Shown here one piece after another: positions 57,681 to 60,168 of a DNA stretch of 64,000 nt. A model generated the notes under the pieces. That model did not search any database and was not told the DNA's origin. It worked only from the letters and a program-made list of their open reading frames with translations. The position numbers were made by a program, and so were the translations under genes. The stretch's first letter is position 1, and each line of letters starts with the position of its first letter. Origin of the DNA: Nitrososphaeria archaeon (lineage in GTDB: Archaea; Thermoproteota; Nitrososphaeria; Nitrososphaerales; JAAOZN01); contig JARVJZ010000005.1 in the NCBI GenBank assembly GCA_029775855.1, positions 62,001 to 126,000 on the forward strand, in the 5' to 3' direction.

Positions 57681-58418
57681 TTATCCCTCCTCGGCTCCTA
57701 CATGTTCACCTAAAGCTATCTTCAAGATCTTTGTATGCTTCTTTTCATCTATGTCGATAGAGGTTAAGAGTGCTTTCACCGTTGGACTAGTTTCCTTCAA
57801 AAAGTCTAGTCTGCTATCAATAGCCTCATCCTCCATCTCTAAAACAGCCCTTAATGTTTGAAGCTCTGCGTCAGTAAAATATGGTTCATTTAATTTATCA
57901 AGCCTAGCGAAAATATGTGAAACTATGTCAGCATGCCTTAGGCTGTCTGCTGCTATCTGTCTGAATAGAAGTTCAATTAACTCATCTCTAATGTTGTCAG
58001 TAGCCTTAAGACAACGCTGCGCTGTTTTAATCTCTAACAACCTTCTAGCGTTAAGTAGAGCTGCTAATTCGCCAATCTCACCTTCAGCCTTAGGCTGCAT
58101 CTTTGAACCTTTTTTAAGCGAAATTATCTGTTTTGCAGCATCAAGTAGATTGAGTTCAACAGCATCCGCATCTAAACCTCCAGCAACCTTCTGCGTAAGC
58201 TCCTCAACAACCAACTGAGCCTCACCATCAAGTAACTCACGAAGCCTAACACCACGGCTACCCTTCATATACTGCGATACAGCAGCAGGCGTCACACAAA
58301 GCACGGTAGCCGCATCCTTCTTAGAAAAGCCGTATCTTGAGATAAGTAGAGCTGCAACAGACGCTCTTAAAGGTGGAATGATATCCTCACTTCTAACTCT
58401 CTTAAGTTTTTTATCCAT
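57681..58418 (-). CDS. HTH regulator fused to a ferritin-like helical domain (candidate iron regulator)
   Basis: 245 residues, ATG start. Residues about 15-60 form an XRE-like helix-turn-helix (LLISRYGFSKKDAATVLCVTPAAVSQYMKG). Residues about 115-240 are a four-helix ferritin-like domain with candidate metal residues in LEIKTAQRC, ADSLRHADI, LEMEDEAID and DEKKHTKIL. The first ExxH-type site is imperfect (Ser at the usual Glu), so metal binding is not certain. It is divergent from the FTR1 permease gene across 77 bases holding palindromic repeats. Direct iron sensing is inferred from fusion and context. Confidence 0.75.
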   Translation of the reverse strand: MDKKLKRVRSEDIIPPLRASVAALLISRYGFSKKDAATVLCVTPAAVSQYMKGSRGVRLRELLDGEAQLVVEELTQKVAGGLDADAVELNLLDAAKQIISLKKGSKMQPKAEGEIGELAALLNARRLLEIKTAQRCLKATDNIRDELIELLFRQIAADSLRHADIVSHIFARLDKLNEPYFTDAELQTLRAVLEMEDEAIDSRLDFLKETSPTVKALLTSIDIDEKKHTKILKIALGEHVGAEEG

Positions 58419-58432
58419 TTGTTATTCACACT

Positions 58433-58470
58433 GTTAACCAGTTAAATTAACGCCGTAAGGATTATTTAAC
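58433..58470. promoter_or_regulatory. Palindromic GTTAA/TTAAC cluster between the HTH-ferritin and FTR1 genes
   Basis: GTTAAC (58433-58438), the 11-base palindrome GTTAAATTAAC (58441-58451) and TTTAAC (58465-58470) lie in the divergent promoter region. The 11-base palindrome is placed where the regulator's own TATA box would be, and TTATTTAAC where that of FTR1 would be. Binding there could shut both genes. It is a good operator candidate; A/T richness makes chance occurrence possible. Confidence 0.5.
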
Positions 58471-58495
58471 TCTATTTCCACTATATTTACTATAG

Positions 58496-59392
58496 GTGCC
58501 GTGTTTGATTGGGCAGACGCTGATTGCATTGAGAGAAGGGTTTGAAGCAGCTCTAATCACATCGATAATAATAGCATACCTTACCAGACTGAATCGAAAG
58601 GACTTGACAAAGCAAGTCTGGATAGGAGCCTATTTATCCCTAGCTTTAAGCGTATTGCTTGGCGCAGCCATCTGGTTCACATACGGAGCCATACCTAAGA
58701 GCACACAAGTTCTATTTGAAGGAGTAGCGGCTTGGATAGCAGTTATTGTTCTCACGTCGATGATATACTGGATGGCTTCAAAAGGTAGGAGGCTAAAGGA
58801 AGAAATCGAGCATAAGATAAACCAAATTATGCATAAAGAAGTTGTAGCAACATTTGGTAGCGGCTCCTCAACCTACCTTATCCGCACCTCAACACTAGCA
58901 TTTGCGGCTCTTAGCTTTGTTGTGGTGTTCAGAGAAGGCTTGGAGACCGTTCTCTTCCTTACACCATTCTTACTAAGTAGCGTATTTGAAACATTAGCCG
59001 GAGCAGCCGCAGGTATTGGCGTAGCATTCCTCTTATCCTACCTAATATTCAAAGTAGGCATGAAGCTAAACCTACGAAGATTTTTTTACTATACAAGCAT
59101 ACTCTTAACATTACTGGCAGCTGGTCTAGCTGGATACGGAACACACGAACTTCTAGAGTACTCCAAATCTGTAGGCTTAGACTTAGGCTGGCTCTCTAAA
59201 AACGCTTACGCATTAAACATACCAGACGATAGCATCCTACACCATAAAGGCGCCATAGGATCTATATTCGCTGTTATGTTCGGCTACACCATTAAGGCGG
59301 AGTGGCTTAGAGTATTTGTACATCTAATCTATTTAGCTGTAACTTTACCCCTTATACTATATGCCTACTCTAATAAGCGAAGCAGCAATTGA
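58496..59392 (+). CDS. FTR1-family iron permease
   Basis: 298 residues, GTG start, with about seven membrane segments. Both REGxE signatures are present: IALREGFEAALITS near residue 12 and VVFREGLETVLFLTPF near 145, the iron-permeation motifs of Ftr1/EfeU. No EfeO/EfeB or multicopper oxidase gene is adjacent. It is divergent from the HTH/ferritin-like gene. The start could be a TTG three codons downstream. Confidence 0.92.
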   Translation: MPCLIGQTLIALREGFEAALITSIIIAYLTRLNRKDLTKQVWIGAYLSLALSVLLGAAIWFTYGAIPKSTQVLFEGVAAWIAVIVLTSMIYWMASKGRRLKEEIEHKINQIMHKEVVATFGSGSSTYLIRTSTLAFAALSFVVVFREGLETVLFLTPFLLSSVFETLAGAAAGIGVAFLLSYLIFKVGMKLNLRRFFYYTSILLTLLAAGLAGYGTHELLEYSKSVGLDLGWLSKNAYALNIPDDSILHHKGAIGSIFAVMFGYTIKAEWLRVFVHLIYLAVTLPLILYAYSNKRSSN

Positions 59393-59472: not shown

Positions 59473-60168
59473 ATGAGTGTAGGGGCAGAAGTCTCAAAAG
59501 TTTTGTCTAGCAGCTCAAGGTGGAAGATACTAGAAATACTAGCAAAAGGTCCTAAAGATATTAAGGCTATAGTGAAAGAAACAGGAATACAGCCCACAGC
59601 AGTCAGATATCACATACAATCACTACATCGGCTTGGATTAGTCGAAACCTACGAAGAAAAAGGCACCATCGGCAGACCACGCATATACTATAAACTCTCT
59701 AAAAAGCAAATCTCTGTAGGCTTCCCAGCTAGAAACTACATACTGCTAGCCACACTCCTAATAGAAGCGATAAAGCAGAACTTAGGCACAGAAGAGGCTA
59801 AAAAGTTAATTCATATAGCGGGGGTTAAAAAAGGGAAGGAGCTCGTAGAAGAGCTAACCTCAAAGTATAATATAACGAAGTGGAAACCACATGACTTCAA
59901 ATCAATCTATATTGAGGATTATCTTACTCAAATAGGTGTTCAACCCGAAGTAGTGAAGATGAGCAGCGATAGAATTGTCTTTAGAGAGCATAGCTGCCAA
60001 TTCTTAGAGCTGGCAACAAAGTATCCTGATTTGGTTTGTGATGTCCTTGACACAGCTATACACTCTGGCATAAGTGAAGCATTAAAGGATGTGAAGATAA
60101 CTAAAACCAAATGTATGGGACACGGCGACGAATTCTGCGAATACACAGTATCTTGGAAGAAGAGTTAA
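59473..60168 (+). CDS. Winged-helix regulator with cysteine-bearing sensor domain (SufR-like)
   Basis: 231 residues, ATG start. Residues 8-75 form an ArsR/DeoR-type winged helix (SSSSRWKILEILAKGPKDI, TAVRYHIQSLHRLGLVE, GRPRIYYKL). The C-terminal half ends with FREHSCQFLELATKYPDLVC and KTKCMGHGDEFCEYTV. The cysteine spacing (HxC...C...C-x7-C) resembles SufR-type Fe-S sensors (COG2345) and V4R-like domains. It may sense an Fe-S cluster or iron, in keeping with FTR1 just upstream. The ligand is not proven. Confidence 0.8.
   Translation: MSVGAEVSKVLSSSSRWKILEILAKGPKDIKAIVKETGIQPTAVRYHIQSLHRLGLVETYEEKGTIGRPRIYYKLSKKQISVGFPARNYILLATLLIEAIKQNLGTEEAKKLIHIAGVKKGKELVEELTSKYNITKWKPHDFKSIYIEDYLTQIGVQPEVVKMSSDRIVFREHSCQFLELATKYPDLVCDVLDTAIHSGISEALKDVKITKTKCMGHGDEFCEYTVSWKKS

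Follow-up and report, generated by a model that had tools for sequence, protein, structure and literature searches.

Can a protein that joins a DNA-binding domain to a ferritin-like domain act as a genetic switch for iron uptake? The question is raised by two divergent open reading frames, with 77 bp between them, in the stretch of archaeal DNA analyzed here (64,000 nucleotides; hereafter the window). The first-pass annotation had described open reading frames of 245 and 298 aa, which were found as noted, and had taken the second for an FTR1 iron permease lying head-to-head with the first, an identification borne out by Pfam. The coding features are as follows.

57681–58418, minus strand: helix-turn-helix (HTH) plus ferritin-like regulator gene, 245 aa open reading frame
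58245–58391, minus strand: XRE-type HTH, residues about 10–58, with invariant R18, Y50 and R55; placed by model helices, HTH_3 and invariant residues
57714–58085, minus strand: ferritin-like four-helix domain, residues 112–235, with invariant E129, D158, H162, E196, D224, E225 and H228; placed by alignment, model and Pfam
58496–59392, plus strand: FTR1-family iron permease with two REGxE motifs, 298 aa, the presumed target (PF03239, E 2.4e-69)

Taken alone, the window protein matches the Pfam families HTH_3 (19.8 bits, E 8e-4) and Rubrerythrin (PF02915; 19.6 bits, E 1e-3, with a cut-off of 22.8) at levels that fall short of the cut-offs, and as a single query against PDB sequences it gave chance matches only. 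Among 58 homologues, Rubrerythrin was matched at E≤0.01 by 39 and HTH_3 by 36, with a best value of 4e-7 in each case, and a profile search with the C-terminal domain of the homologues found a mini-bacterioferritin at E 1e-4. Judged by this significant profile similarity, the C-terminal domain is a member of the ferritin-like superfamily (rubrerythrin branch). The N-terminal domain belongs to XRE/HTH_3 on the basis of profile matches together with its HTH helices, with the reservation that the window protein itself stays under the cut-off. The fusion claimed at the outset is thus upheld by the homologue matches and by structure prediction. In Pfam, the window protein had no match to the N-terminal HTH of DtxR plus its metal-binding dimerization domain, and only 2 of the 58 homologues matched the former (PF01325), weakly; a Fur profile was absent among the matches shown from Pfam and NCBIfam. 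By these criteria the protein belongs to neither the DtxR/IdeR nor the Fur family.

The full-length AlphaFold model (mean pLDDT 88) places a four-helix domain after an HTH. Helices at residues 10–29, 33–39 and 44–52 occupy the HTH region, two more (66–79 and 84–102) lead into a linker, and the ferritin-like domain comprises helices 112–142, 146–175, 183–200 and 212–235. Modeled alone, this domain gave a pLDDT of 92 and a pTM of 0.81. The top Foldseek matches were bacterioferritin, ferritin and sulerythrin, with a probability of up to 0.99 (mini-bacterioferritin), but superposition on closed ferritins was partial (best TMq about 0.43, rmsd about 12–20 Å, no E value below 0.05). In the model, the helical hairpins agree locally with those of ferritins and their mutual packing apparently differs; only a short segment (residues 176–182) is predicted to connect helix B to helix C. 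Sulerythrin is a domain-swapped dimer, and either a swapped dimer of this kind or an all-antiparallel bundle is a possible, inferred arrangement that fits the prediction. The ferritin-type fold proposed earlier is borne out in part: the domain has four helices, is related to ferritin/rubrerythrin by sequence and keeps its ligands invariant, but its superposition on closed ferritins is incomplete and does not confirm a closed bundle topology.

The residues listed above as invariant, together with R125 and K227 in the C-terminal domain, were conserved without exception in 58–60 sequences that share 26–72% identity with the query. Alignment with bacterioferritin places the invariant residues at its ligand positions, namely those of helices A and C, the His of helix B and the ExxH of helix D. 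Five positions of the canonical set E, ExxH, E, ExxH are retained (E129, H162, E196, E225 and H228), and the sixth, the helix B Glu, is replaced by S159, or by Cys in nine sequences, next to the invariant D158. The first-pass annotation was correct in seeing Asp/Ser where Glu is expected, and had called the ligand set partly degenerate. That description holds for the helix B position, but the doubt attached to it is largely removed by the rigid conservation of the set, which, despite the partial degeneracy, suggests a functional metal site. The unusual helix B motif DxxxH of the regulator was also observed in small standalone ferritin-like proteins of about 120–160 aa (L055, L056, L057, L058 and L059), where it appears as DSLRH, DGLRH or DVSRH.

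Of 300 genomes from the same order, 23 carry the fusion, and a survey across the phylum found it in 51 of 398, the source genome counted; at least nine families are represented (f1, f6, f9, f11 and f14 inside the order; f25, f26, f30 and f45 outside). In another phylum, 394 genomes yielded HTH-length matches only, and a contig scan returned HTH-only relatives, whose 14 genomes gave no match to the ferritin-like domain. Searches of open-access full text turned up no publication in which an HTH is joined to a ferritin-like domain, which is not proof of novelty.

The divergent pairing of regulator and FTR1 is retained in the genus and elsewhere. Over 62 loci (60 with open reading frame calls, plus L092 and L099), the divergent partner was FeoA then FeoB in 12, FTR1 in 9, ZIP in 8, a PhnD-like ABC transporter in 6 and an FbpA-like protein in 1, this last locus having ABC-transporter genes on the regulator's other side. 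Such transporters made up 0/395 of genes at least four positions away, and none was found alongside standalone XRE paralogues (0/21 loci). On the regulator tree the partner changes repeatedly, with at least 5 changes for FTR1, at least three for Feo and 16 for all labels together. A chance pairing with FTR1 was rejected on these grounds, and the co-occurrence with iron genes in relatives on which the earlier reading depended is strong and phylogenetically repeated. Because architecture, neighbor and intergenic motif are all conserved among relatives, the observation is far from chance. Two loci with near-identical regulators and the same downstream genes (L122 and L123) carry FTR1 in one case and a PhnD-like transporter in the other at the same position, a swap that suggests equivalent roles for the two partners.

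Not every homologue fits this pattern. Ten homologues in f26 retain all of the ligands with neither a metal-transport partner nor the operator described below; the link to iron is either not universal or was lost in that family. Most f45 loci also lack a metal-transport partner. In f26 (L150–L161) the usual divergent neighbor of the regulator is an unknown protein of 143 aa that has no match in Pfam, followed by MalQ, and MalQ is the downstream neighbor in the window as well. At L128, L130 and L132 the regulator is flanked by two transporters, a PhnD-like ABC system that is divergent from it and an ABC-3 (Znu/Mnt-type) one that is convergent; from this placement, the PhnD-like systems may carry a metal or metal complex and not phosphonate.

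Intergenic regions common to the regulator and its partner contain a palindrome, TWACRSYGTWA, usually as a pair spaced 21–24 bp apart. In the window, the pair and the putative promoter elements around it are:

58426–58436, read on the plus strand: operator core A, TCACACTGTTA, about 12 bp from the regulator start codon and distal to FTR1
58448–58458, read on the plus strand: operator core B, TAACGCCGTAA, 22 bp center-to-center from core A and abutting the FTR1 TATA box
58462–58469, plus strand: putative FTR1 TATA box, TTATTTAA, from sequence and the conserved core–TATA spacing
58442–58450, minus strand: regulator TATA-like element, TTAATTTAA, between and partly overlapping both cores, from sequence and inference

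The pair falls inside the fragment (58419–58495) that had been named beforehand, for which there are no binding data. Counted across loci, the palindrome gave 79 sites in 52 upstream regions, compared with a mean of 6.2 and a maximum of 13 in 200 shuffles, and it occurred in 41/63 upstream regions versus 20/393 control upstream regions, none of which contained a core pair. Where cores were paired in the upstream regions, spacings of 21–23 bp were the commonest. The FTR1 TATA box starts 9 bp from the center of core B and spans 34 to 27 bp before the start codon. A core precedes a TATA-like box by 7–14 bp in 21/29 transporter promoters, and by exactly 9 bp in 12 of those 21, versus 2/393 controls; with this spacing the proximal core covers the BRE. 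The motif itself came from the upstream regions in which it was counted, which makes the comparisons with shuffles, control promoters and TATA spacing the meaningful ones. Among the places found by a scan of the window genome, only the intergenic site of the fusion gene is double. A pattern built on exact GTTAAC half-sites was also tried and proved too strict.

The mechanism that we propose starts from what was observed: the architecture, the invariance of the ligands, the repeated occurrence next to iron-transport genes, and the operator and where it lies. Iron as the ligand, a dimer or tetramer on the core pair, the corepressor direction and DNA binding itself are inferred. We consider it rather probable, in the absence of binding or expression data, that the protein is an autoregulated, iron-responsive, one-component repressor of iron uptake. 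The C-terminal helices would bind Fe(II), probably at a di-metal site formed by E129, D158, H162, E196, E225 and H228, which may be shared between two subunits, as helix B is joined to helix C by only a short link. With abundant iron, the metalated protein, probably as a dimer, would place its HTHs on both TWACRSYGTWA palindromes, 22 bp or two helical turns apart. Binding to the promoter-proximal palindrome would cover the BRE beside the FTR1 TATA box, so that TFB and TBP are excluded and FTR1 is silent, and the bound regulator would cover its own promoter too; the flanking of its TATA-like box by the core pair suits autorepression. When iron is scarce, loss of the metal would release the DNA and allow FTR1 to import iron.

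The same anatomy could respond to another signal. Mn(II), Zn(II) or redox state, with O2 or peroxide acting through a rubrerythrin-like di-iron center, might tune metal import; rubrerythrins react with peroxide, and ZIP partners at 8 loci and ABC-3 permeases beside three lend the idea some weight. We regard it as unlikely but still worth keeping in view, because the commonest partners, FTR1 and FeoAB, and the FbpA-like partner are iron families and occur in separate parts of the tree. To that extent the one-component iron regulator first suggested is supported by its pairing with iron genes, while the choice of iron over another metal or redox as the signal is an inference. An iron-regulated activator would use the same site differently, the apo protein recruiting TBP/TFB from just upstream of the BRE under iron scarcity and iron abolishing the effect. 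The location of the proximal operator, directly upstream of the TATA box in those 21 of 29 transporter promoters, is one also used by archaeal activators, but the BRE is overlapped by the site and does not stay free, and the core pair of the window also lies to either side of the TATA-like box of the regulator itself. Activation therefore seems improbable to us.

A further possibility, raised in part by the first-pass annotation, is that the ferritin-like domain is merely a dimerization scaffold or binds some other ligand, such as heme, with no direct role for iron. In favor of this are the replacement of the helix B Glu by Ser/Cys and the partial fold match to closed ferritins. A scaffold, however, needs none of the seven invariant acidic or His residues at ligand-type positions, which are kept even in f26, and an invariant Met or Cys that could ligate heme is absent; the invariance of the di-metal ligand set disfavors both versions and leaves them only a slender chance. 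We likewise see little prospect that the operator is owned by a different regulator, either a standalone XRE paralogue or the SufR-like HTH protein at 59473, with the fusion acting elsewhere. In favor of such an owner, the recognition helix of the standalone XRE proteins is near-identical, and similar TAACRSYGTTA sites precede sufB whether or not a genome has the fusion gene. Against it, cores paired 21–24 bp apart and their enrichment track the promoter of the fusion gene in many families, and the window genome's double site is confined, among the places examined, to the intergenic region of that gene.

An iron-responsive repressor of this design would resemble DtxR/IdeR/MntR and Fur in binding palindromes at iron-uptake promoters in a metal-dependent way, which for the fusion is only proposed, and it differs from them in having an XRE HTH and a ferritin-like bundle as its DNA-binding and sensor domains. 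With rubrerythrin, bacterioferritin and sulerythrin it shares sequence homology, a four-helix domain and the residues E / (D)xxxH / E / ExxH, and it departs from them in its HTH, its short B–C connection, the Ser/Cys in place of the helix B Glu and the lack of a rubredoxin domain; an enzyme or cage role has not been shown for it. FBXL5 is a hemerythrin-like eukaryotic iron sensor with a di-iron helical bundle. In plants, a di-iron helical bundle in the hemerythrin-type protein BRUTUS reports cellular iron (PMC12022348), and this sensor is the nearest functional parallel. FBXL5 and BRUTUS belong to another bundle family, and their output is a ubiquitin ligase where the fusion has a DNA-binding domain.

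The protein looks like an uncharacterized type of genetic iron switch. Whether it stands for a distinct metalloregulator family of this phylum, with a ferritin-like di-iron site, perhaps formed between domain-swapped subunits, that senses iron and directs XRE HTHs onto a paired operator at the BRE, is a proposal that could as easily fail as hold. Were it correct, the ferritin-like fold would join the short list of folds that sense iron for transcription, a storage or oxidase fold turned sensor in parallel with the hemerythrin-type iron sensors of eukaryotes. For many archaea of this phylum few players in iron regulation are defined, and the locus supplies a testable regulator, operator and targets for several archaeal families. 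A 2020 review of bacterial iron biology covers DtxR/IdeR and RirA/Irr, and the passages retrieved from it do not mention a ferritin-like sensor (PMC7762939).

Several observations concern related proteins and sites. Archaeal XRE regulators also exist as standalone proteins of about 140 aa, which we take to be COG2522-like; these have the same HTH as the fusion and a near-identical recognition helix (xTxAAVxxYxxxxRG). They differ in ending with a conserved C-x2-H ... C-x2-C in place of the ferritin-like domain and in having no iron transporters adjacent. They are widespread in the order (G000:C1:29816-30055, which is L002; L026–L045), and their recognition helix suggests that they may be a sister regulator that senses metal or Fe-S and possibly controls the suf genes. 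In the source genome, single TAACRSYGTTA palindromes precede sufB, sufC and a TusA-like gene. A wider regulon was not assigned to the fusion protein on this basis, as the sufB site is found in 7/26 genomes without the fusion gene versus 6/20 with it. The single palindrome before sufB and sufC, ATAACRSYGTTAT, is conserved in the genus (G000:C4:196290 and G000:C4:199348, which are L210 and L211; L219, L221; L225–L272), and since it also occurs in genomes lacking the fusion, the Fe-S assembly genes are probably controlled by a different regulator that uses a similar site. Located 3′ of FTR1 on the same strand, positions 59473–60168 (plus strand) of the window encode an ArsR-type HTH that is joined to an output domain and bears a weak resemblance to SufR (TIGR02702, E 1e-12, which is below the cut-off); this gene keeps its place in the genus (L046, L047). 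Finally, ZIP and FTR1 promoters of f9 and f11 (L051, L052, L091–L099) carry a second palindrome, ATAACATATGTTAT or ATGCCGTATGGCAT, just 3′ of the TATA box, and a similar one precedes sufB at L228, L235, L240 and L275, which suggests a further regulator.
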